Source of the DNA: Waddliaceae bacterium
GTDB taxonomy: Bacteria > Chlamydiota > Chlamydiia > Chlamydiales > GCA-2709385
Assembly (NCBI GenBank): GCA_002709385.1
Contig: PAQS01000047.1
Location: 1 to 64,000 of the forward strand
DNA length: 64,000 nt
Direction: 5' to 3'
The stretch's first letter is position 1; every line of letters starts with the position of its first letter. The position numbers were made by a program, and so were the translations under genes. Shown here piece by piece: positions 1 through 15,756 of this stretch. The notes under the pieces were generated by a model. The model saw only the letters and a program-made list of their open reading frames with translations. It was not told the origin of the DNA and did no database searches.

Positions 1-621
1 GGGGCAACAGTTATGTTCTTAAGCGATGAAGACAAAGCGCTTGGATTTATTGCCGTCAATGATCCTATCAAAGAATCGACTTTGCCGGCCATCAAAAAGC
101 TACATAAAATGAATATGCAGATCGTTATGCTCACCGGTGACAATAACGTCACGGCTAAATCAGTTGCAGATAGACTCGGTATTAATGATTACAGAGCCGA
201 TGTTTTGCCAAATGATAAAGCAAGAATTGTACAAGAATACAAAAATAAAGGCTGCAAAGTTGCTATGGTAGGAGATGGTATTAACGATGCCCCGGCATTA
301 AGTTCCGCACATGTTGGTATTGCAATGGGTAGTGGGACTGACGTTGCTATGGAAAGTGCTGGCGTGACTTTAGTTAAAGGAGATTTACTGAAATGCGTAA
401 GCGCTATTGAGTTATCGCGCGCTACAATGAGTAATATAAGGCAAAATTTGTTTTTAGCTTTTGTATATAACGCGCTTGGTGTCCCTATTGCTGCGGGAGC
501 ATTATATCCATTTCTAGGTATATTGCTATCACCTATTTTTGCAGCAGCTGCTATGTCTCTTAGTTCTGTTAGCGTTATTGGTAATGCGCTTCGATTAAAT
601 TTAAAAAGGGTTGATCTATGA
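1..621 (+). CDS. copA: Copper-translocating P-type ATPase, C-terminal part (cut by window edge)
   Basis: The reading frame is open from base 1, so the gene begins upstream of the window. The visible part covers the P-domain end and the last membrane pair. It has TGDN and [11 protein letters not shown] of the P-type ATPase hinge, then the P1B-type membrane signatures YN, PIAAG and MSLSSVSV, which match copper ATPases of the CopA class. The phosphorylation site DKTGT lies outside the window. Such pumps export Cu(I) across the inner membrane at the cost of ATP. The TGA stop overlaps the ATG of the multicopper oxidase (ATGA), so the two are translationally coupled and form one copper-resistance operon. 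Confidence 0.93.
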
Positions 622-2777
622 AAAAAATTGCATGTTTTCTGTTATCTTTTGTGATTTTAGGCGCTAGTAGCGCTTATGCTAAAGTTGTTACATATCAGTT
701 TGATATTAATACGAAGTCTGTGAACTTTACAGGTGAAAGCGTTGTTGCATTAGCTATTAATAATCAAATACCCGGTCCAACAATTGAAGCGACAGTTGGT
801 GATACTTTAGAGGTCACTTTCAATAATAAAATGGATACAGAAACATCAATTCATTGGCATGGTATCTTGCTGCCAAATGATCAAGATGGAGTTCCTTACT
901 TAACCACTCAGCCAATTGCACCGCATTCCTCATTTACGTATCGATATAAAATTACGCATCATGGCACCTATTGGTATCACTCTCACACAGGCTTGCAGGA
1001 GCAGCGTGGTATATATGGCTCTCTTGTTTTTCATCCAAAAGATGGAGAGCGTGTAAAGTCGGACAAGGACTATGTCGTTGTTTTATCTGATTGGACTAAT
1101 GAAAATCCGAATCAGGTTTTAGCTAATCTTAAAAAAGATGGTGATTACTACGCCCTTAAGAAAGGCAGCGTTCAGTCATGGGATAAAGTCATTAGCAATG
1201 GCTCACAAGCCATTAAAAACCGTCTTCAAGGATCATGGTCTCGCATGGGGCCGATGGATCTATCAGATGTTGGGTATGATGCTTTTTTAAGTAATGGGAA
1301 AAAAGAGGAAACGCTAAACGCGCATAAGGGAGACAAGGTTCGAATTCGTCTCATTAATGCAGCAGCGTCCAGCTATTTAAATGTAGAATTTTCAGGTGGC
1401 CCAATGACAATTGTTGCTGCTGATGGAGTTGATGTTGAACCGCTTCAGGTACAAAGGTTACGTATAGCAATAGCTGAAACATATGATGTCATTGTTCCAA
1501 TTAGTGACAATAAATCTTATGAGCTTCGTAGCTCCTCAGAAGATGGTACAGGACACTCTTCAACATTTATTGGCAATGGTGAAAAGGTTTTTGCGCCAGA
1601 TATACCAAAACCAAATTTATTTTTAATGGATCACTCTCAGCATGGCAACCACGGTTCTCATAACAACTCTGCGGGCGCAATGTCAATGCCAGCGACAATC
1701 AAACATCAAATGCCGCAACATTCAGGGCATAAAATGGAAAATATGAATTCCCATGATATGCATGCGGGACATGATATGCATCAGATGCAACAGACAAGCG
1801 CAAAACAAGATCAGCCCCCTCATCATATGCAGAATGTAATTGAGTACATGACTGATTATGAAAATTTACGCGCCGTAAAAGATACCTCTTTTGATAAAAA
1901 TAAACCACAAAGGGAGGTTATTCTAAACCTAACTGGAAATATGGAGCGTTATGTTTGGAGTTTTAATAATAAGACCTTAGCAGAATCGGATAAAATTATG
2001 ATAAAGCATGGTGAGATTGTTAGATTTGTTGTTCAAAATCAAACAATGATGCATCACCCTATACATTTGCATGGTCATTTCTTTAGAGTCATTAATAAAC
2101 AAGGCGATCGCAGCCCTTTAAAGCACACAGTTAATGTTCCACCAATGGATAAAGTTATTATTGAGTTTGATGCTAATGAAGAAAAAGATTGGTTCTTTCA
2201 TTGTCATAACCTTTATCACATGAAAGCAGGGATGGCTCGGGTTATTTCTTATGAGGGAACAACTCAGGCAACACCAGAAACATTGGCAAAAATTGCGCAT
2301 GATGGTTGGTTTTTTAGTGGTGATATCTCAGCGCTTTCTAATATGACTATCGGGATGTTAAAGACTTCCAATACCAGAAATTCCATTGAATTTGAGTATG
2401 ATTATAATTATAAAAAAGAATATGACGCAGAACTTATCTATGCCAGGAGTATCACTCGTTTTTTAGATGTTTATGCTGGTGGTAATTTTGAGCGTGAAGG
2501 TAAAGACGAAAAAGCGGAAAATACAGCCATTGTTGGTATTAGGTATGTATTGCCCATGCTTATAGAATCCAATTTGCGTATTAATTCTAAAGGCAAGGTG
2601 CGGTTGGCTCTTGGGTCTGACCTTCAGTTAACCGAAAGAACCAAATTTGGCTGGTCTTATAATACAAACAAAGAATATCGTTTCAATCTTGCTTATGAAA
2701 TCAATAAAAAAATGTTGCTTGCAGCAACTTATGACTCCGATTTCAAGTGGGGCGTGGGATTAAGAGTCAGGTTTTAA
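618..2777 (+). CDS. Periplasmic multicopper oxidase with C-terminal outer-membrane barrel-like extension
   Basis: This is a 719-residue protein with a signal peptide (residues 1 to about 21, ending SSAYA). The three cupredoxin domains carry the copper ligands HWHG at 79-82, WYHSH at 119-123, HPIHLHGH at 480-487 and [12 protein letters not shown] from 528. A Met/His-rich stretch lies at about 335-405, as in periplasmic Cu(I) oxidases of the CopA/CueO class. The oxidase fold ends near residue 550. The last roughly 165 residues are rich in alternating aromatic and charged beta strands and end in RVRF, a C-terminal Phe typical of outer-membrane barrels, and they resemble CopB. The likely role is oxidation of Cu(I) to Cu(II) in the envelope. 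The fusion would tether the oxidase to the outer membrane; that is inference. Confidence 0.9.
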
Positions 2778-5227: not shown

Positions 5228-5257
5228 TTGACTATCCTAACAAATGTTAGGTAAGAT
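5228..5257 (+). promoter_or_regulatory. Repressor promoter with palindromic operator
   Basis: TTGACT at 5228-5233 is a near-consensus -35 box and TAAGAT at 5252-5257 a plausible -10 box, 18 bases apart. Between them lies CCTAACA-AA-TGTTAGG (5236-5251), a 7+7 bp perfect dyad with a 2-base centre. An operator inside the spacer of the promoter of a LexA-like gene is the classic arrangement for autorepression. No second copy of this dyad was found elsewhere in the window. Confidence 0.6.
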
Positions 5258-5288
5258 AAAATGGTGTTTGAAAAAAGGATTTATCTTG

Positions 5289-5975
5289 ATGACTAAGGAT
5301 GCGCATATGAAACCAGGACCTAAACCCACGGTGGGTCTAACTCAGGCCCAGCGAGAAACCATGCGGGTTATCCGCCAATATCAACAGCAGCACGGCATGT
5401 CGCCGACTGTGCGCGATGTTGCTGATGCTAGGGGTATCAAAAGCTCTAGTGCTATTGAAATCATCCAGCAGCTGGAATCTAAGGGCCATCTCAAACGCGG
5501 TAAAGGCAAAGCTCGGGCTATTGAACTGATAGAGCCAGTAACGTCTATGCCTGTGATTTCACAGGTGGTACCGGTTGAGATTTTAGGCCAGGTAGCAGCT
5601 GGTCACCCAATACTTGCGATAGAAGACAGACGTGGTGAATTTCTAGTGGATACAACAATTGCCAGAGGTCATTGTTTTGCACTGGAGATCACAGGCGACA
5701 GTATGATTGATGCGGGTATTGATGATCGGGATTTTGTGATTGTGCGCAGCCAAGAGACGGCGATAAATGGTGAGGTTGTTATTGCTTTATTGGATGATGA
5801 TGAAGCAACCTGTAAAACTTTTTATAAGCTGGATCGGCACATTGAGTTAAAGCCTGAAAACAAGGCTTATCCGGTTATTGTTGTCCCACCGGAGCGGCCA
5901 TTTAAAATTCTAGGGAAGGTAATTGCAATTCGAAAAACGGAGGTTAAATATGCAAACGGCAGTGGTAACAACTAA
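5289..5975 (+). CDS. LexA-like S24 repressor (probable lysogeny/SOS switch)
   Basis: The protein has an N-terminal winged helix (about residues 20-75, with MSPTVRDVADARGIKSSSA) and a C-terminal S24 self-cleavage domain. The cleavage bond is Ala104-Gly105 (QVAAGHP), the nucleophile Ser138 (GDSM) and the general base Lys176 (ATCK). All LexA catalytic parts are present, so DNA damage (RecA filament) should trigger autocleavage and induction. A reading frame from 5244 would start inside the operator, so ATG 5289 is chosen. ATG 5307, preceded by AAGGA, is an alternative start. It most likely represses the prophage as well as its own promoter. Confidence 0.88.
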   Translation: MTKDAHMKPGPKPTVGLTQAQRETMRVIRQYQQQHGMSPTVRDVADARGIKSSSAIEIIQQLESKGHLKRGKGKARAIELIEPVTSMPVISQVVPVEILGQVAAGHPILAIEDRRGEFLVDTTIARGHCFALEITGDSMIDAGIDDRDFVIVRSQETAINGEVVIALLDDDEATCKTFYKLDRHIELKPENKAYPVIVVPPERPFKILGKVIAIRKTEVKYANGSGNN

Positions 5976-7345: not shown

Positions 7346-8303
7346 AGATTTAAAATTTGTCAGCAATCATGACTGCCATAACCAAATTTATATTGAGCCT
7401 GATTTTGATGAGGATTGTGATGATTTGGTTTGTGATAGCTGTGGCCGGTATATTCTGCCAAATACCCATAGCAAGCAACGATTTGTTGAAACCTCCGTAG
7501 AGCTAAATTACAAGGTCTTTGAGAAATTTATCGAAGACAGTATGCGCCAACAAGAAATAGCTTTTCATAGGCTATCTACAGGCATTTATGCTGTTATGAG
7601 CCCGCATGGTCTTGCAACTATTGTGGTGATGGATCTCTGTAATGATTATCGTTATTTAACAGTGGATAAGCTAAAGGCCAGTCCAACACTATTGTTAAAT
7701 ATTCGAGATAAATTGCCTAAAACCGGGCTAGAGGTACAACGACTATCGGTTGCTGATTTTGTTGTAATGCCGGAAATCTTAGCAGATAGTATTATGGCCA
7801 CTTGCAAACAAGGTGTTGCTGATAATTTACCAAACCAATCGGCCAGCATATTAACATTTCCAGCAATTAACTTGGCAGAGCCAAAGCCTGCATCAGAAGA
7901 AAAATACCTGGAAATTAAGATTAATGATGCCGGTGTGAGTATCAATGATATTGTGGTTGTTGGCAGGCAAGCCAGTTCTCGATTATTAATTTTTCGTTTG
8001 CTGCTAGAGCAATATTGGCAGGATTTTGAGGTCGCTAAACCACCCGAGCAACATAGTTTTCTCAACATGAATCAGCTATCTGATTTGATGGAGCCACATG
8101 TTGGTATGGTTAATGATTTGGAGCAACAAATTAGGCGGCCATTAAATAAAATGCAGAAAGTGATCCAGGATATTTTGGCCAAAGAGTTGGGGTTGCCCGT
8201 CCAGCGTCATGATGTCATCGAAATGCGCGGCTGGCCAGGCTGTAATAACAAACAAGAATTTGGCTATCGCTTAAACCCGCATACCTTACTTTTTAGAAAG
8301 TGA
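7293..8303 (+). CDS. Unrecognised Cys/His-containing protein (main part of frameshifted gene)
   Basis: This is an open frame of 336 residues whose only early start codon is TTG at 7293, without a ribosome site. It is best read as the body of the gene begun at 7160. A candidate zinc site near the N-terminus has HDCH followed by CDDLVCDSCGRYI. The C-terminal 70 residues (from about QQIRRPLNKMQKVI) resemble a winged-helix DNA-binding domain. The family is unknown. It ends convergently with the primase-helicase gene, overlapping by 18 bases. Together with the upstream gene it forms a two-gene unit controlled from the LexA-like promoter. Confidence 0.6.
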   Translation: MHARILAALLNYNQRDVEDLKFVSNHDCHNQIYIEPDFDEDCDDLVCDSCGRYILPNTHSKQRFVETSVELNYKVFEKFIEDSMRQQEIAFHRLSTGIYAVMSPHGLATIVVMDLCNDYRYLTVDKLKASPTLLLNIRDKLPKTGLEVQRLSVADFVVMPEILADSIMATCKQGVADNLPNQSASILTFPAINLAEPKPASEEKYLEIKINDAGVSINDIVVVGRQASSRLLIFRLLLEQYWQDFEVAKPPEQHSFLNMNQLSDLMEPHVGMVNDLEQQIRRPLNKMQKVIQDILAKELGLPVQRHDVIEMRGWPGCNNKQEFGYRLNPHTLLFRK

Positions 8304-10307
8304 AGCAGCATCTAGCCATTTTTGCTCTTTACTATCACTACTGGTTGTTTTGGTTAGCAACCCTTCAGCAAGCAATTCATTAGCCAATGCCTCTATCTTA
8401 TGACGGCTCAAAGTATGTAACTCTACCGGCAAGCGTGCACGCTGTTTAAAAAGCCCAGGCTCACCTGTATGCGTAAATGGTACGCCATCACTTGCAGCAT
8501 CTTTAATCGCCTCAATCAATGTTTGTTTTAAATAATCAGGAGAAAACCCACCTGTTGGAACAAAAACACCATCTTGCCATTCCAGATTTAGATCTTCTTG
8601 CATAGGGCCATAGTTTGATTTTTTACGGCTTAAAATTCTAGTATTGCCATTTTCCTGATTAGAGGCCCTAGAAAAATACCAGCGCGATCTAACTGTGTTA
8701 TTCCAAGCAGTAGAGCCACCTGTGCCAGTTTTGCGCTGAATACCAGAATCAGATGGATGGGCGCAAAGTAAAACAGCACCATTAATGGCGCGGGCAATAC
8801 GAGCACAGCAATTTTGCACAAACTGGCGAACTTGAGAGCGATTATTTTCATTACCGCCAAATAAATCAGCAACCGTATCTAAAATTACTAAATCTGGTTT
8901 GAAAGATTTAATGTCTTCAAGTAATTTCTGATAAAACATCGTGAGCTGGCCTGCATCTTTGCCATCGAAAATCATTAATAGATTATCAGCGCCAACTCTT
9001 GAAATCATACGTAGATTATCTGTTAAATCTGACATTTCCACATCAAAATAGCTGTTGATTGCATGTTGCCTGCGCCATAATTCTTGCTCGTCATCTTCAC
9101 AAAGCAGCGCATAAACTTTTGCTTGCTGGATGGGTAAATTAAGCCAAGGTGAACCTGTTGCAACGGCTGTCATCAGTTGTTGTGATAGCAGAGATTTGCC
9201 AACACCACCATCGCCATAAATGGCCGTAACATAACCTTTAGGCAGCCATTCTTTTATCACCCAATTACGCTCTGGCGGCAGTGCTTGCCAGTTACAAAGA
9301 TCAATAGCTTCAATGTTAGATCGTTTTATTACCTCTTTTTTGCTGGTGCGGATAAATTCTCTTAGATTTGTTTTTTCAGCCAATGCATCTGCCGCATCCC
9401 AGCCTTTAGGTTTATCGGTAGGCGGCAGGATAATAGCAATTGATGCAACATGTGGTTTTAAAAATTCAGCTAATTGTTTGGCGTAAGCAATACCAGGCTC
9501 ATCATTATCAGGCCAGATGGTTACATGCTTTTTATAAAGAGGTCGCCAATCGGTTTTATCTAACGGCGCATTAGCACCAAACATTGCAGTAGTTGCGGTA
9601 ATGCCTGATTTAATTAAAGCATCTGCTGATTTCTCTCCTTCAACTATCATGATATTTCTGGATTTGATGATATTGGGGATATTATACAGTGGCCTGATAT
9701 CAGGTGCGCGGTGGCTACAGCTTTTCACGTCCCAAGGTCGATATTGTTTGCCACGCTTGGTTTCATAGCGGTACACGCAAGCTATAATCTTTTCATTTTC
9801 ATCATAGTAATCCCAGCGCGCTGTTGGTTGGCCTAATAAATTATCTTGGCATAAATCTTTTAAATCATTGCTGTCATATTCTTGTAGCCTTTCTCTTATT
9901 TCTCTGTCTTCTTGGTAAGTGCGTGTTCTAATACCAAGCCAATCAGACATGTCGTTAATAAGCTCAGGGAAATCATATTTGGTATCACGCCCGGTAACCG
10001 CTGCCCAAAGGCCAATAATGTCGCCACCTTCGCCGGTTGCAAAATCATGCCACATACCAGCCTTATCACCAGAGATATCAATAACCAAGCTTTCGCCCAT
10101 ATTGCCTCTAATATCACCCACATAAAATTTGTTGTTTTTAAAAACACCACCTGGCAGTAGATAAGATAGCACCCCGCTTAAATTACTAATCAAACGCGCC
10201 TTAATTTCAGAGGTGGATTCTGAATGACCCATCATCTGAGAGACATATTGTGGCGCTGCTTTGTTTAGATCGAACCATTCCTTAAAATCAATAATATTGT
10301 CTGTCAT
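8286..10307 (-). CDS. Phage primase-helicase (Toprim + RepA-like ATPase)
   Basis: This 673-residue protein has a primase-type N-terminal region (about 45-110: WHDF, GGDIIGL), a Toprim domain from about residue 215 (MIVEGEKSADAL, then WPDND) and a RepA/DnaB-like ATPase with Walker A GDGGVGKS at about 365-372 and Walker B LVILDTVADLF. The C-terminus is winged-helix-like. It should prime and unwind phage DNA at the replication fork. ATG 10307 overlaps the stop of the nuclease gene (ATGA) behind a GGGAG ribosome site, so it is preferred over ATG 10322. It is the last gene of the leftward replication operon. Confidence 0.88.
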   Translation of the reverse strand: MTDNIIDFKEWFDLNKAAPQYVSQMMGHSESTSEIKARLISNLSGVLSYLLPGGVFKNNKFYVGDIRGNMGESLVIDISGDKAGMWHDFATGEGGDIIGLWAAVTGRDTKYDFPELINDMSDWLGIRTRTYQEDREIRERLQEYDSNDLKDLCQDNLLGQPTARWDYYDENEKIIACVYRYETKRGKQYRPWDVKSCSHRAPDIRPLYNIPNIIKSRNIMIVEGEKSADALIKSGITATTAMFGANAPLDKTDWRPLYKKHVTIWPDNDEPGIAYAKQLAEFLKPHVASIAIILPPTDKPKGWDAADALAEKTNLREFIRTSKKEVIKRSNIEAIDLCNWQALPPERNWVIKEWLPKGYVTAIYGDGGVGKSLLSQQLMTAVATGSPWLNLPIQQAKVYALLCEDDEQELWRRQHAINSYFDVEMSDLTDNLRMISRVGADNLLMIFDGKDAGQLTMFYQKLLEDIKSFKPDLVILDTVADLFGGNENNRSQVRQFVQNCCARIARAINGAVLLCAHPSDSGIQRKTGTGGSTAWNNTVRSRWYFSRASNQENGNTRILSRKKSNYGPMQEDLNLEWQDGVFVPTGGFSPDYLKQTLIEAIKDAASDGVPFTHTGEPGLFKQRARLPVELHTLSRHKIEALANELLAEGLLTKTTSSDSKEQKWLDAASLSKK

Positions 10308-11005
10308 TTTTGTTGCTCCCAACAGGTTTTATTAAAGCGGCACATCTTGCAGATGAAATAATTTGGATCATTAGCAAGACGCGGTAAAAATTCTTTAGCG
10401 TTACTGGCTTTTAAAATATGCACGGCTCTATCAGAATATTTTTGCGCCACTTGAGCATCAAATGCGATCCACTCATGATGCATCTCAGCGCTATCTTTAT
10501 TTAGCACCGTTATCAGCGCAGGATTTTCATCTAAGCGCATATAGGCCATGTATAGTTGGACTTGGGCGTAATAATGAGGGTGTGATAAGGCAATGCCTCG
10601 GTTTACACAATCGCGCCAATATTTGTTATTCATGGTTTTACATTCCCAAAGCGCAGGATAGGAAAAGCCATCAGGACCACTAAGTAATACGCCATCTATG
10701 TGGCCAGCTATTTTGTCATCTGCAACTGAAAAGCCATATTGATCGCCGGATTTATTGCGGGTGCTTAAATCAAAACCTGCTAAGCGTAACCAATCGATAA
10801 CTAAATCTTCTAACGCATGCCCCATGGCAAAAGTTTGTAATTGTTTGCCGGTAAATTGAGTATCAGGTTTTATGCCCATATACTGATATTGAATGCGCCT
10901 GTCACACGCATCACCTAAGCTTGATGTCCCTAAATAATTACGTGGCTTTTGACTATCTGATTTTGCTTGCAGAGCTGTTTCAATAAGCGCATTAATGTTG
11001 TTCAT
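10304..11005 (-). CDS. Cas4/RecB-like PD-(D/E)XK nuclease with probable Fe-S cluster
   Basis: This 233-residue protein has the nuclease motifs in order: GHALE near residue 81, GHIDGV, WECKT and the helix YYAQVQLYMAYM (the QxxxY motif). One Cys in an N-terminal GDACDRR element pairs with a C-terminal cluster CKMCRFNKTC. This is the one-plus-three cysteine arrangement that holds a 4Fe-4S cluster in Cas4 and AddB. The likely role is exonuclease processing of DNA ends for recombination. It lies between the small ORF and the primase-helicase. No CRISPR array or other cas gene is present, so this is phage recombination rather than spacer acquisition. Confidence 0.85.
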   Translation of the reverse strand: MNNINALIETALQAKSDSQKPRNYLGTSSLGDACDRRIQYQYMGIKPDTQFTGKQLQTFAMGHALEDLVIDWLRLAGFDLSTRNKSGDQYGFSVADDKIAGHIDGVLLSGPDGFSYPALWECKTMNNKYWRDCVNRGIALSHPHYYAQVQLYMAYMRLDENPALITVLNKDSAEMHHEWIAFDAQVAQKYSDRAVHILKASNAKEFLPRLANDPNYFICKMCRFNKTCWEQQK

Positions 11006-11144
11006 TGCTAAGCTCTCTTGCGATTAGAATTAAGTCGCCAACAGTAATTTGGCCAATGGGTTTATTGAGACCAAGTTTTTGTAGTTGCTGCATGAGCTTG
11101 CCAGCCAGCAATAATTTCATTAGTTCCGTATTTTGTGTTTGCAT
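10992..11144 (-). CDS. Small hypothetical phage protein (50 residues)
   Basis: ATG 11144 is preceded by GAGGT at good spacing and the frame ends with TAA at 10992-10994, 14 bases inside the nuclease gene. The product is helical, begins MQTQNTELMKLLLAGKLM and has a second segment KPIGQITVGDLILIARELS. Compact spacing on both sides and the ribosome site support translation. Its function is unknown. Confidence 0.65.
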   Translation of the reverse strand: MQTQNTELMKLLLAGKLMQQLQKLGLNKPIGQITVGDLILIARELSNEQH

Positions 11145-11147
11145 GTG

Positions 11148-12194
11148 TTACCTCGTTAATCCTTCCATTACCATAAAATCACCTTTTAAAAACCGTGGGG
11201 TGGTACTGTCAAAATAGAGTTTTTTGATATTGGCTTTGCCAACGGGGTGTACCGTAAATCCTGTACGCAGCACATGCCGCTTTTGTACTCTAGGCCCTGG
11301 TATTTTGCGGCCAACTCTGATGGGGATATCGCTAAAATCGCCGTAAATGCAAAAGCGATAATAGGTTTGGCCATCGACTACTTTTTCTTTAGGAAGTGCC
11401 ATGAGCCCTAAGCTTTGCGAAATAAAAGCAATATCTAAAGCCAGTTGTTTTGAGGCGGTGGAATACTCAAAGGTTTTATGCAGCATATAGCCATCGGTAT
11501 CGAGCAAGCCTGCTAGCAGTTTTGTTCTGCTTTCTCTATCTGCAATTTTGTAAATCTTTGGAATGAATTTTTCTGATGATAATTTATCAAATAAATCTAA
11601 ATCCCTTAGAATGTCGGTTAGCGGATTATTACAGCCTGCGGCGGTGCTGAAATAATAGCTGTTGGCCTGATTACCTGGAATTTGATTGATGCGAACCTTC
11701 ATGTTCATTTGCTCTGCCATATCAAAGCAATAAGAAACAATCTCTGGATCGGGCGTGGTAATGCTAGGGGTTGCATTTTTAAAACAACCATCGCCTAACA
11801 TAATGCCAAGAAAATATGGGTCTAATGGCAATTCGCCTATGCCTTTAAAATCTATCTGGCTGCGATAGAGTAAATGTACTCCTTTAAAATGCGCTGATTG
11901 CTGCTGATATTCCCACATCGGTAAGGTTTTGGTTTGTTGTTTAGCATCACTGCTACCAACACGCACCAAATGCAAATAGTCATTAGCACCTAATAAAAAA
12001 GATGGTCCTTTTATTGGCCTGATTTCAAAACAATCCTCTTTTGTTGTGCGAATATCGGTAAGCAATATAGGTTTGCTATCAACACCCATGAGCTCATCAC
12101 CGATTTCTAGTTGGTTAATAGCGGTAATGTCACCGCTATGCATTAATAATTCATAAGGTTTAGGCAGTCCTGTTGCCGGATGTTGGCGCACCAT
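11148..12194 (-). CDS. Free-standing intein-like Hint protein with LAGLIDADG endonuclease, splice residues lost
   Basis: This 348-residue protein is laid out like an intein from end to end. A Hint N-terminal block lies at about 14-75 (LEIGDELMGVDSKP, then FLLGANDYLHLV), the two LAGLIDADG motifs at 128-138 (FLGIMLGDGCF) and 226-237 (LLAGLLDTDGYM), and the C-terminal Hint strand pair at about 325-343 (LYFDSTTPRFLKGDFMV). The residues needed for splicing are missing: no Cys or Ser at the start of block A, ANDY instead of the TxxH block B, and MEGL instead of HN-Cys at the end. There are no exteins. It is therefore a solo gene, probably a homing endonuclease or a domesticated DNA-binding protein within the recombination operon. 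Confidence 0.8.
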   Translation of the reverse strand: MVRQHPATGLPKPYELLMHSGDITAINQLEIGDELMGVDSKPILLTDIRTTKEDCFEIRPIKGPSFLLGANDYLHLVRVGSSDAKQQTKTLPMWEYQQQSAHFKGVHLLYRSQIDFKGIGELPLDPYFLGIMLGDGCFKNATPSITTPDPEIVSYCFDMAEQMNMKVRINQIPGNQANSYYFSTAAGCNNPLTDILRDLDLFDKLSSEKFIPKIYKIADRESRTKLLAGLLDTDGYMLHKTFEYSTASKQLALDIAFISQSLGLMALPKEKVVDGQTYYRFCIYGDFSDIPIRVGRKIPGPRVQKRHVLRTGFTVHPVGKANIKKLYFDSTTPRFLKGDFMVMEGLTR

Positions 12195-12205
12195 AATAAA
12201 TCTCC

Positions 12206-12781
12206 TTATTGGTTAAGCCATTCCGGCAAATCAGCTGTATTCGTTGTTGTTGATGCAACGCTTGCTTGCCCCATAATGGTTTTGTATTGAGAAGACTCTG
12301 GGGTTATGATATTGACAATTTTATTGCGACTTGGATGAGCACCAGTGCTATCAACATCAACGCCAACTTTGGCAGCACAAACTAAGGTGTTAATGCCGCT
12401 AATATCTTGCAAAGTACGTTTTATATTGGCCTCATCTGAATTATCATTTGGCATGATGTTGTAAGCAGATTCGACTAATGCACGCAGCATAGAGCGGCCC
12501 ATTTGCCCCCAGATATCCTCGCCTTTGTCGTTGCGTTTAGTACCTTGAATACCAACCATTTGATGCACAATACGACCTGAATATTCACCTTCAACTACCG
12601 CAAAATCGACATTTAGATAAACCGCATCACTTGATCTACTTTGGGTAAACCAGCCACCAGGGCCATGGCCACCGGGTTTAATACACACCGAGGCTTTAAT
12701 TAAAGTGCCAGCCGGTATTAGGCTAAAGCTTTGGTTTTGTGGGGCTGCGTTGTTTAAGTCGTTTATAAATGAGTAATCCAT
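12206..12781 (-). CDS. Phage recombination-operon protein, DUF669-like
   Basis: This 191-residue protein has a beta-rich middle (YLNVDFAVVEGEYSGRIVHQMV) and a helical section (GRSMLRALVESAYNI). It resembles DUF669 proteins, which are often encoded next to Sak4-type ATPases and are suspected ssDNA-binding or annealing accessory factors. Four bases separate it from the ATPase gene. The assignment is by position and general pattern only. Confidence 0.6.
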   Translation of the reverse strand: MDYSFINDLNNAAPQNQSFSLIPAGTLIKASVCIKPGGHGPGGWFTQSRSSDAVYLNVDFAVVEGEYSGRIVHQMVGIQGTKRNDKGEDIWGQMGRSMLRALVESAYNIMPNDNSDEANIKRTLQDISGINTLVCAAKVGVDVDSTGAHPSRNKIVNIITPESSQYKTIMGQASVASTTTNTADLPEWLNQ

Positions 12782-12784
12782 GAT

Positions 12785-13603
12785 TTATGCTCCTTGATTT
12801 GATTGATTAGAAACTTGTTTAATTTTTTGCAGTAACTTGCCAAGATGGGCAGGCTCTACCACCTCTAATGCGCCACTTCGATCTTTAGCTGGGTAATTCC
12901 ATTGATTGATGGTCTGGCATACAAAGCAGCGTTTTGCGGGTTGCTCTTCATTGGTTTTAATCGCCACCATGCTAATGACCTCATCAACAATGCCTGGGAG
13001 TTCATTGGATGTTTTACTGCCTTCGCATTGCGGGCTCCAAAAGGCGCGATTAAATTCATCAAAGCGCTCTTCTAAAATTCCGACAAAAATAATGTCTTTG
13101 TTGGGTATGTGCTGGAATTGATTGATCCATGCGATCATTTCACTAGCAAGTAAACCATAAGCTGCTCTGGTATCTGCTTTACCGGTACGCTCTGAGATGC
13201 ATTCAGGTTGTGATTTAGCCCATTGCAAACAAAGACGTGAGGCAACTGTTATGCTGTCGATAAAGATGCATTGATATTTGCTCAGCGCTTTGGGATCACC
13301 ATATTGTTTGGAGACATGCTCATAATGTTTAGCGCTATAAGGTTGCTCTGATCTAAGTGCAGGATTAGGTCCACCAATTAGGCAGGCAATATCTCTTGCT
13401 TCTTCCCAGGTGCGCACACTAATAGAATCACCAGACCATTTTTGCACCGCAAGCAAACCGGCTTCCATATCAATACAAAGTGTTGGTTGCTCTAATGTAT
13501 TTAAAAGCGTGGTCTTCCCAATCCCAAAAGGGCCAAAGATAACCATCTTCACGCCGGTATGATTTTTTAAGCGTTCTTCTGCGCTGATAATTTTTAAGCT
13601 CAT
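12785..13603 (-). CDS. AAA_24/Sak4-like recombination ATPase
   Basis: This 272-residue protein has the P-loop GPFGIGKTT at residues 24-32, IDMEAG as a nearby acidic motif and a Walker B-like strand (CIFIDSI). It is a RecA-fold phage ATPase of the kind paired with single-strand annealing. ATG 13603 is preferred because GAGGA lies eight bases upstream. A longer frame from 13663 would overlap the previous gene. The neighbours (DUF669-like protein, Cas4-like nuclease) fit a phage recombination module. Confidence 0.8.
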   Translation of the reverse strand: MSLKIISAEERLKNHTGVKMVIFGPFGIGKTTLLNTLEQPTLCIDMEAGLLAVQKWSGDSISVRTWEEARDIACLIGGPNPALRSEQPYSAKHYEHVSKQYGDPKALSKYQCIFIDSITVASRLCLQWAKSQPECISERTGKADTRAAYGLLASEMIAWINQFQHIPNKDIIFVGILEERFDEFNRAFWSPQCEGSKTSNELPGIVDEVISMVAIKTNEEQPAKRCFVCQTINQWNYPAKDRSGALEVVEPAHLGKLLQKIKQVSNQSNQGA

Positions 13604-13604
13604 T

Positions 13605-13994
13605 TTATTGTTCCTCTTTGATTGAAAATTTTGCTTTGCCCAGTTGCTCAGTTCTGGCATCACTGAAAAATTGTTTTAAGGTTTCAGGCCAAGCCACATA
13701 TTTACGTTCATCAATGCTGTAGCTGGTTTTGATGTATTGCTTGCGATCTTCTTCTGGTATTTTGTGAATAATCTCAGAGAGTTTGTTTTGGTCCCAAACC
13801 ACTTTCTTAGGCATATCTGCGGTGATTGCGTAATTATCATCAATAAAATGCACAGTGCCGGTATCACGCCCATCTGCTTGTAAGGCTTCTTTAGCGCGAC
13901 TCGAAAATTTTAGCTCCAGCGCATTATCTAAAATGGATTTATGGCGCTTGGCTTCTGCTAATACGCTACTTAGCCTTGCTTGCAACGATAACAA
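13605..13994 (-). CDS. Hypothetical phage protein, start uncertain
   Basis: This is an open frame of about 129 residues in the leftward operon with no family I recognise. It is charged and helical at both ends, with a short beta section (GTVHFIDDNYAITADM). The only available start is TTG 13994, with no clear ribosome site and an in-frame stop 15 bases upstream of it. A 14-codon frame beginning ATG 14040 reads towards it in another phase, so the 5' end may have suffered a small indel. It is tightly linked to the ATPase gene (1-base gap). Confidence 0.6.
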   Translation of the reverse strand: MLSLQARLSSVLAEAKRHKSILDNALELKFSSRAKEALQADGRDTGTVHFIDDNYAITADMPKKVVWDQNKLSEIIHKIPEEDRKQYIKTSYSIDERKYVAWPETLKQFFSDARTEQLGKAKFSIKEEQ

Positions 13995-14032
13995 ATCAGC
14001 TATCGATATCTAAAAAACAAAATGGGATCGTG

Positions 14033-14635
14033 TTACTCATGGTTTTCTCCTTTGGTTGATGGTTTTATTCCGGATTTAAGCTTTGAATGTCCACCTTGGT
14101 TGAGGTAAGGTAAAAGCTCTATAAAACAGGGGCGAATTTGCTCTAGCAGCCTGTAGATGGCAGCACGCGATTTGCCCGTCATGCTGGCAACTTCTGTAAT
14201 GGTGTATGTTTGAAGTAATGTAGTGATTCTTTGCGTGCCTTCTGGCAGACGACAAACAATATGGGCTACATCTAAAGCCAAATCTAAATCTTCAAATGAT
14301 TGTTCATCAGGCAACTTATCAACTAAGGCCACACCATATTCATCATATACATCTAATGAGATGGTGGTGGATTTACCGCCGCGCTTAAGGCTTAATCGCC
14401 TTTGGATCATGTTGTTAGAGCGACGGGTAATAATCTGATCAACAAAAGTTCCCAGGCTACTTTTTTGCTTGTTGTATTTGGCAAGGCACTCCAATACTTC
14501 GCACAATAATTCCTGCTCAATATCTTCAATGTCTTCGCTGCAAAAACATGGCATTTGTTTTAAGCGCCATGCGTGATATTGGATCTGTTTTACAATGGCT
14601 GGATCCATGCCCGGATAACGATTTTTTGATCTCAT
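14033..14635 (-). CDS. Phage-encoded sigma-70-like factor
   Basis: This 200-residue protein has a region-2-like N-terminal half (HAWRLKQMPCFCSEDIEDIEQELL, split around the acidic stretch) and a region-4-like HTH at about 140-180 (LLQTYTITEVASMTGKSRAAIYRLLEQI). The start at ATG 14635 follows AGGGAG at ideal spacing. ATG 14662 lacks one. It is the first gene of the leftward early operon, next to the large non-coding hub, so it could direct host polymerase to phage promoters. It could alternatively be a sigma-like DNA-binding regulator that does not bind core polymerase. Confidence 0.75.
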   Translation of the reverse strand: MRSKNRYPGMDPAIVKQIQYHAWRLKQMPCFCSEDIEDIEQELLCEVLECLAKYNKQKSSLGTFVDQIITRRSNNMIQRRLSLKRGGKSTTISLDVYDEYGVALVDKLPDEQSFEDLDLALDVAHIVCRLPEGTQRITTLLQTYTITEVASMTGKSRAAIYRLLEQIRPCFIELLPYLNQGGHSKLKSGIKPSTKGENHE

Positions 14636-14706
14636 AACGGCTCCCTGTTTGGTTTCTTTCAAGAATGCCGAGAACGGCGAAACTTCAGCAGGGACGCTAA
14701 CTTTTC

Positions 14707-14792: not shown

Positions 14793-14924
14793 CAAAATTC
14801 GATTGCTGGAATTTGGGGGATTTGGCGCTAAAAAATGCTCAGTTTAGCTGCTAACAATGATGTGATTTTGGTGGTGATTTTTTGCGTTTAGAAGGATGAC
14901 ATAAGATGACAAACTGCTTTACGG

Positions 14925-15168
14925 TTTCCAGCTTTCCATGGAAAGTAGACCGATGGAAACGAGATGGAAATCAAATAAACCCATATAGATCAAGGGGTTG
15001 CGGGCTTTCCACTGCTTTCCATTTCCATGCTTGCTTTCCGGAAATAAATCGCTCTAAACCCTTGATATATAAGCGCTTTCCGGCTTTCCGGGTTCCTATA
15101 TATATAAAATATATGGAAATGGTCATTACCATTTTCCATATTTATAAATATCTATGTGGCAATGGAAA
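14925..15168. repeat. TTTCC(A/G)/(C/T)GGAAA iteron-like array
   Basis: Forward TTTCC motifs start at 14925, 14933, 15006, 15016, 15022, 15035, 15077, 15085 and 15133. Reverse GGAAA motifs occur in hexamers starting at 14939, 14954, 14965, 15039, 15114 and 15163. Two are fused head to head into palindromes, TTTCCATGGAAA (14933-14944) and TTTCCGGAAA (15035-15044). Spacings of 6 to 11 bases within clusters recur. AT-only stretches separate the clusters. Such an array usually marks a replication origin or a cooperative operator. There is no coding explanation. Confidence 0.7.
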
Positions 15169-15218
15169 CGGACGCAAGAACTCACTTTAGTTGTGGCACT
15201 TATTTTTGTTGTTATTTT

Positions 15219-15288: not shown

Positions 15289-15756
15289 ATGTCAGCTGCA
15301 ACACTTGCTTTAGATTTAGGCACACAAACCGGATTTGCGCTGCTTGCTGATGGCAAGATTGTAAGCGGCAGTAAAAGTTTTCATACCTCGCGCTTTAGTG
15401 GTGGTGGCATGCGCTTTTTGCAATTTCGCCATTGGCTAGATGATTTAAAAATTAAAACGGACATTCGGCTGGTATTTTTTGAAGAAGTACGCAGGCACTT
15501 AGGGGTTGATGCAGCTCACGTTTATGGTGGGTTTTTAGCGCATCTAACGGCGTGGTGTGAAGATCATGAAATTGCCTATCAAGGCGTTGGTGTTGGGGTG
15601 ATTAAAAAATTTATGACCGGTGCTGGTAATGCAAGCAAAGATGCAGTGATACAAGCAGCCAGGGATAAAGGATTTGATCCGGTAGATGATAACGAGGCGG
15701 ATGCCTTAGCTATTTTATTTTGGAGTCAGAAACATGCGAAGCAAACAACTACTTGA
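15289..15756 (+). CDS. RuvC-like Holliday-junction nuclease
   Basis: This 155-residue protein has an RNase H fold with the acidic residues expected of RuvC: an Asp in the first strand (LALDLGTQTG), a Glu pair in FFEEV and an Asp in the last helix (DDNEADALAI). It is a phage version, shorter than bacterial RuvC, and would resolve branched DNA before packaging. It is the first gene of the rightward operon, with ribosome site AAGGG. Its end overlaps the next gene by 23 bases. Confidence 0.85.
   Translation: MSAATLALDLGTQTGFALLADGKIVSGSKSFHTSRFSGGGMRFLQFRHWLDDLKIKTDIRLVFFEEVRRHLGVDAAHVYGGFLAHLTAWCEDHEIAYQGVGVGVIKKFMTGAGNASKDAVIQAARDKGFDPVDDNEADALAILFWSQKHAKQTTT

Follow-up and report, generated by a model that had tools for sequence, protein, structure and literature searches.

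The locus considered here raises the question of what a dense array of TTTCC/GGAAA words does between two divergent operons of a prophage, and which of the proteins encoded nearby would read it. A prophage lies in the window, i.e. the whole stretch of 64,000 nucleotides that was analysed; it has a terminase of the lambda type, a large serine recombinase and a replication module. The replication operon runs leftward (8286-14662) and encodes a sigma-like protein, phrog_2480, Sak4, phrog_2300, a homing-endonuclease-like protein, a Cas4-type exonuclease and a primase-helicase. The rightward genes start at 15289 (ruvC-like, DUF6378, methyltransferase, terminase), with the genes for the terminase and for a ParB-N/methyltransferase fusion no more than 3 kb from the array. 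This gene context agrees with the original prediction, which had placed the array at the junction of a leftward replication operon and a rightward operon.

8286-10322, minus strand: primase-helicase (TOPRIM primase, RecA/RepA-type helicase and predicted C-terminal winged helix), proposed initiator
14033-14662, in the leftward operon (8286-14662): sigma-like protein
14925-15168, no strand: iteron array, 15 copies of [A/C][T/C]GGAAA with the core GGAAA in both orientations (word count, shuffles)
14933-14944, no strand: palindrome TTTCCATGGAAA, two fused iterons
15035-15044, no strand: palindrome TTTCCGGAAA, two fused iterons
15289-15756, plus strand: RuvC-like resolvase gene, adjoining the array in most relatives

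Also encoded in the prophage is a LexA-like repressor (5244-5975, plus strand; match to TIGR00498, E 1.9e-49). Inside the replication operon, a 348-aa protein (11148-12194, minus strand) has Hom_end/LAGLIDADG matches and resembles intein-bearing helicase stretches; it is present in the related loci L024, L025, L032, L033 and L045 and was detected in L191. A copper-resistance multicopper oxidase-like protein (618-2777, plus strand) lies directly left of the serine recombinase and is probably host sequence flanking the prophage.

Repeat array and neighbouring elements

A word count on the window gave 15 exact copies of GGAAA/TTTCC within 244 bp (six GGAAA and nine TTTCC on the plus strand), in keeping with the approximately 14 copies, two pairs of them fused into palindromes, that had been noticed before. 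The context of the iteron is [A/C][T/C]GGAAA, frequently followed by GC. Dinucleotide shuffles of the array stretch (n=5000), a comparison with shuffled sequence having been proposed at the outset, contained 1.27 copies on average and six at the maximum. A comparable density elsewhere in the window, named beforehand as evidence against the prediction, was not found, the densest other 244-bp stretch holding four copies. Across all 64,000 nucleotides TTTCC shows no enrichment (157 copies, 169 expected), and the excess at the array is therefore local. Clustering of repeats beyond chance, as expected of iteron origins of the P4 alpha and SaPI Rep kind, is seen here.

Several further elements lie in the array region.

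15056-15070, plus strand: AAACCCTTGATATAT element, with an inverted partner at about 14990-14999
15093-15141, no strand: two mutually exclusive hairpins, arms 15093-15103/15109-15119 and 15111-15119/15133-15141
15096-15152, no strand: AT-rich segment, candidate duplex-unwinding element

In the interval 14.6-15.4 kb, the 40 bp of highest AT content start at 15096. The overlapping hairpins (A-B and B-C) have the B arm in common and are situated at the far end of the array; similar ones are found beyond the array in many relatives (L128, 12422-12469; L037, about 7895-7938), with an iteron in the loop of the second hairpin in several of them, and they could serve in priming or as an attenuator. 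The element at 15056-15070 is of the type CnnTTGAww, which, often as AACCCTTGATA, occurs in 37 of 57 array regions (16.3 expected). The GC skew, the inspection of which had also been suggested, changes slope near the array, with a steady cumulative rise past approximately 15 kb; the direction of the genes switches there too.

Array words and residue 641 of the primase-helicase

Relatives include Wolbachia WO, AcaML1, a Holospora contig and many uncultured phages. Locus L032, the RuvC of which is 95% identical, has an array of 16 copies that is 97% identical to that of the window, and L024, L033 and L045 (RuvC 71-75% identical) carry a CGGGAAG array at the homologous place. The array word of the Holospora contig is AAATCTAG. 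Wolbachia WO and AcaML1 have homologous ruvC, primase and other module genes; the WO relatives L021 and L290 show AGGAA arrays, and AcaML1 has four copies of CCGTCAGA between primase and ruvC. In the parts of the Wolbachia WO literature reached by term searches, no mention of a phage origin or of iterons appears. In more than 90 of the scanned ruvC loci, many of which are close relatives of one another, a repeated word in the 500 bp upstream of ruvC outscored every other 500-bp window of its locus. A genome search in the phylum of the host gave no other copy of the primase-helicase and weaker helicase matches only.

The word varies by lineage (GGAAA, GGGAA, GGCAA, GGTAA, AGTAA, AGGAA), and the array is found either beside the ruvC-like gene or directly behind that of the primase-helicase. 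Most relatives have it just 3' of the latter and on the same strand, and in many it begins about 20 bp past the stop codon (in L128 the gene ends at 12187 and the array begins at 12208). Unlike in most relatives, the array of the window prophage lies 5 kb from the primase-helicase gene, and the placement directly downstream of the initiator gene that marks the SaPI Rep family is thus seen in many relatives but not in the window.

The primase-helicase is modular, with a common primase half and lineage-specific helicase and C-terminal parts. The correspondence described below was first noticed on comparing C-terminal domains with array words, whereupon a rule was written down and then tested. 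When the mutual information between array word and each of 684 aligned primase-helicase columns was calculated over 20 loci, one column, corresponding to His641 in the window protein, determined the word fully (2.26 bits, equal to the full word entropy); its z score of 9.5 (next column 5.1) is not a probability, because the 20 loci include those of the discovery and close relatives (e.g., four GGCAA rows).

8307-8540, minus strand: predicted C-terminal winged-helix domain, residues 595-672, proposed iteron reader (predicted fold)
8400-8402, minus strand: codon of His641, word-determining, start of the predicted recognition helix (mutual information, structure prediction)

At this position H goes with GGAAA, N or Q with GGGAA, K with GGCAA, D with AGGAA, R with GGTAA and I with AGTAA (R and I in one locus each). 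By comparison, and with the exceptions given below, the repeat sequence depends on the C-terminal domain.

The structure of the window primase-helicase was predicted with AlphaFold2 (mean pLDDT 73.9, pTM 0.40). Predicted helices at residues 595-611 and 640-652 are followed by strands at 656-660 and 667-672 forming a beta hairpin, a layout predicted to be a winged helix; residue 641 falls at the beginning of the second long helix, which would be the recognition helix. The isolated homologous domain of L128 was predicted at a pLDDT of 92.4. In Foldseek comparisons with the PDB, the core matched Twinkle, T7 gp4 and RSF1010 RepA (structures 1nlf and 1g8y); for the isolated C-terminal domain the best E value was 0.36, with no match below 0.1, and many of the weak top matches were winged-helix proteins. 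The expected combination of a helicase with an additional C-terminal winged-helix domain is thus seen in the predicted fold, with weak PDB matches.

A tree built without the C-terminal domain requires eight changes of word class. Neighbours differing in both word and residue 641 are L063 (H) and L021 (D), L191 (H) and L221 (N), and L032 (H) and L033 (Q), each with 100/100 support, as well as L186 and L162 (81/78). Inside a 100/99 clade, word and residue differ between L037 (K) and L128 and L132 (N). The DNA of L037 and L128 is mostly 74-96% identical along the primase-helicase gene and 57-78% identical from the C-terminal domain into the array, a drop in identity that fits a joint exchange of domain and array.

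The later-fetched loci mostly fit the rule, one being clearly off; the rule was seen in and tested on overlapping sets of loci, with few truly new cases among them. Two of the 20 loci belong here: L063 (H), the GGAAA array of which was found once the rule had been formulated, and L186 (D), which has AGGAA like the other D phage, L021. Fetched after the 20-locus test were L316/L317 (Q), which fit the rule with 13 copies of GGGAA, and the WO relative L290, with ten copies of AGGAA and a C-terminal domain near-identical to ones already seen. L323 (I) has AGTGA and L224 AGTAA, with AGT common to both. Clearly off the rule is L285 (D), with a GGGGAT array; no clear array was seen in L289 (a WO copy, D), nor any array in the available stretch of L203 (H). 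L331 combines a G at the key position, a residue for which the rule makes no prediction, with a GGAAA array. Where K replaces R before the key residue, the word is mostly GGGAA regardless of that residue (L222, L286, L232, L248, L288), a pattern noticed post hoc, with L240 ambiguous.

Two observations concern other arrays. L233 has 17 copies of GGAAA (11136-11490), with a primase-helicase of a different helix (LPKNSI) 4 kb away; the protein reading this array was not found. The class-ii primase-helicases (L035, L048, L143, L147, L151 and others) show a second recognition-helix pattern, G-x1-x2-[TS]-I, in which R, D and S at x2 match GC, GG and CC in AGnnnNNA; other columns tie with this two-residue pattern, which is therefore not independent evidence.

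Taken as a whole, a simple recognition code is the likely explanation: a large group of Twinkle/T7 gp4-like phage primase-helicases would carry exchangeable C-terminal winged helices, the word would be predictable from the protein, and relatives would diverge by paired changes of domain and array. Under such a code, residue 641 would pair H with A, N or Q with G, K with C and R with T at the third base of GGnAA, with D and I going with AGGAA and AGTAA. A short search of open-access papers met no prior publication of such a code; the exchange of winged-helix domains in phage replication-initiation proteins has already been described (PMC10684548).

Other candidate binders and other roles

Fourteen other module proteins were tested for word-determining columns in the same way as the primase-helicase (20 array-bearing loci). 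The CI/LexA-like, u425, u336, homing-endonuclease-like and sigma-like proteins, found in three to five loci, were left unscored. No word-determining column was found in Cas4, u191, Sak4, u129, RuvC, the methyltransferase or TerL (9-17 loci). u84 (six loci) gave five such columns (top z 2.5) and the terminase small subunit (seven loci) gave one (top z 2.3), numbers that so few rows easily yield. The other module proteins were rejected as the binder, since those testable with many rows had no determining column.

The original prediction had left a choice between a phage origin and a cooperative operator, naming the primase-helicase and the sigma-like and LexA-like proteins as possible binders. 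An operator through which the LexA-like repressor (5244-5975) or the sigma-like protein (14033-14662) controls both divergent operons would suit an array placed between them, with both regulators encoded nearby, but it is improbable: a cognate repressor conserved with the array, as expected of a LexA/CI operator, is not seen, since of the 20 array-bearing loci (some of them partial contigs) 3 yielded the LexA-like protein and 5 the sigma-like protein, the array of most relatives follows the primase-helicase gene on its own strand, and the word follows a residue of that enzyme. Both proteins were rejected as operator-binding candidates on account of the few loci in which they were found. The origin half of the prediction is accordingly supported and the operator half is not, and among the named binders the residue-word match leaves the primase-helicase as the likely one. 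In the window prophage the array may have a secondary regulatory effect on both flanking operons.

There is little chance that an origin at this place is bound by a separate initiator from the module, e.g. Sak4 or the phrog_2300 (191 aa) and phrog_2480 (129 aa) proteins; these candidates share the module and are present in 15-17 of the 20 array-bearing loci, but a word-determining column is absent from all of them and present in the primase-helicase. A cos/pac packaging site or a partition site for the terminase small subunit or the ParB-like methyltransferase is highly improbable: the nearness of the terminase and ParB-N/methyltransferase genes would favour it, but the position of the array in relatives follows the primase-helicase gene, the methyltransferase (14 loci) has no determining column, and the terminase small subunit could be tested in the seven loci mentioned above, with its single column of low z score.

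A 94-aa open reading frame (14906-15190) overlaps the array. It is very unlikely to be a real gene, because 11 of the 12 codons that differ from those of L032 carry non-synonymous changes (one being a stop), and L024 has no comparable frame open through the array; lacking conservation, it was rejected, and the earlier statement that no gene explains the array holds. Despite this overlapping frame, virtually no credence is given to the array being chance, low-complexity sequence or a coding region, in view of the shuffle test, the conservation of the array among relatives and the lack of conservation of the frame.

Proposed mechanism and known counterparts

The array is thus very probably the replication origin of the prophage, with the primase-helicase (8286-10322) as its initiator. 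The C-terminal winged helix would bind the 15 GGAAA iterons, the third base of each word being read by His641, where the recognition helix begins. On the array, several primase-helicases would come together and melt the neighbouring TA-rich segment (15096-15152), and their helicase domains would load themselves on the opened strands, after which priming would follow. That the enzyme physically binds the array, melts the AT-rich segment, loads itself and starts replication there is inferred; the RepA/T7 gp4/Twinkle-like core and the AT-rich segment suit an origin.

The helicase domain of P4 alpha is a D5-like superfamily 3 domain, and the P4 origin has a second element, crr. The window enzyme is of the AAA_25/RecA-RepA type and, lacking a P4/D5-type helicase domain, falls outside the P4 alpha family proper. 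In P4 alpha, TOPRIM primase and helicase belong to one protein, and repeats in the phage origin are bound by its winged helix (PMC4234260, with reference to Ziegelin and Lanka 1995 and Yeo et al. 2002). The window enzyme likewise has primase, helicase and a predicted winged-helix domain in one protein. SaPI Rep and Cch2 differ from it in belonging to another helicase family and in having no fused TOPRIM primase. The C-terminal domains of SaPI Rep and of SCCmec Cch2 bind iterons downstream of their own genes (PMC7581432), a layout matched by most relatives of the window prophage; the Cch2 site has three iterons, compared with 15 in the window array. At oriV of RSF1010 (RepC, RepA, RepB'), iterons, a RepA-type helicase and stem-loops for priming are combined (PMC4234260). 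The jobs split there among three proteins would all be done by the window enzyme alone. The best reading, by analogy, is that the window system works like P4 alpha or SaPI Rep but on a Twinkle/T7 gp4/RepA-type enzyme.

If this is true, the origin word of many uncultured phages could be read from one protein residue, and the naturally occurring winged helix-iteron pairs would be a ready test set for how a change of recognition helix changes the DNA word. It would also suggest a way in which related prophages that share a cell might be kept from firing one another's origins.
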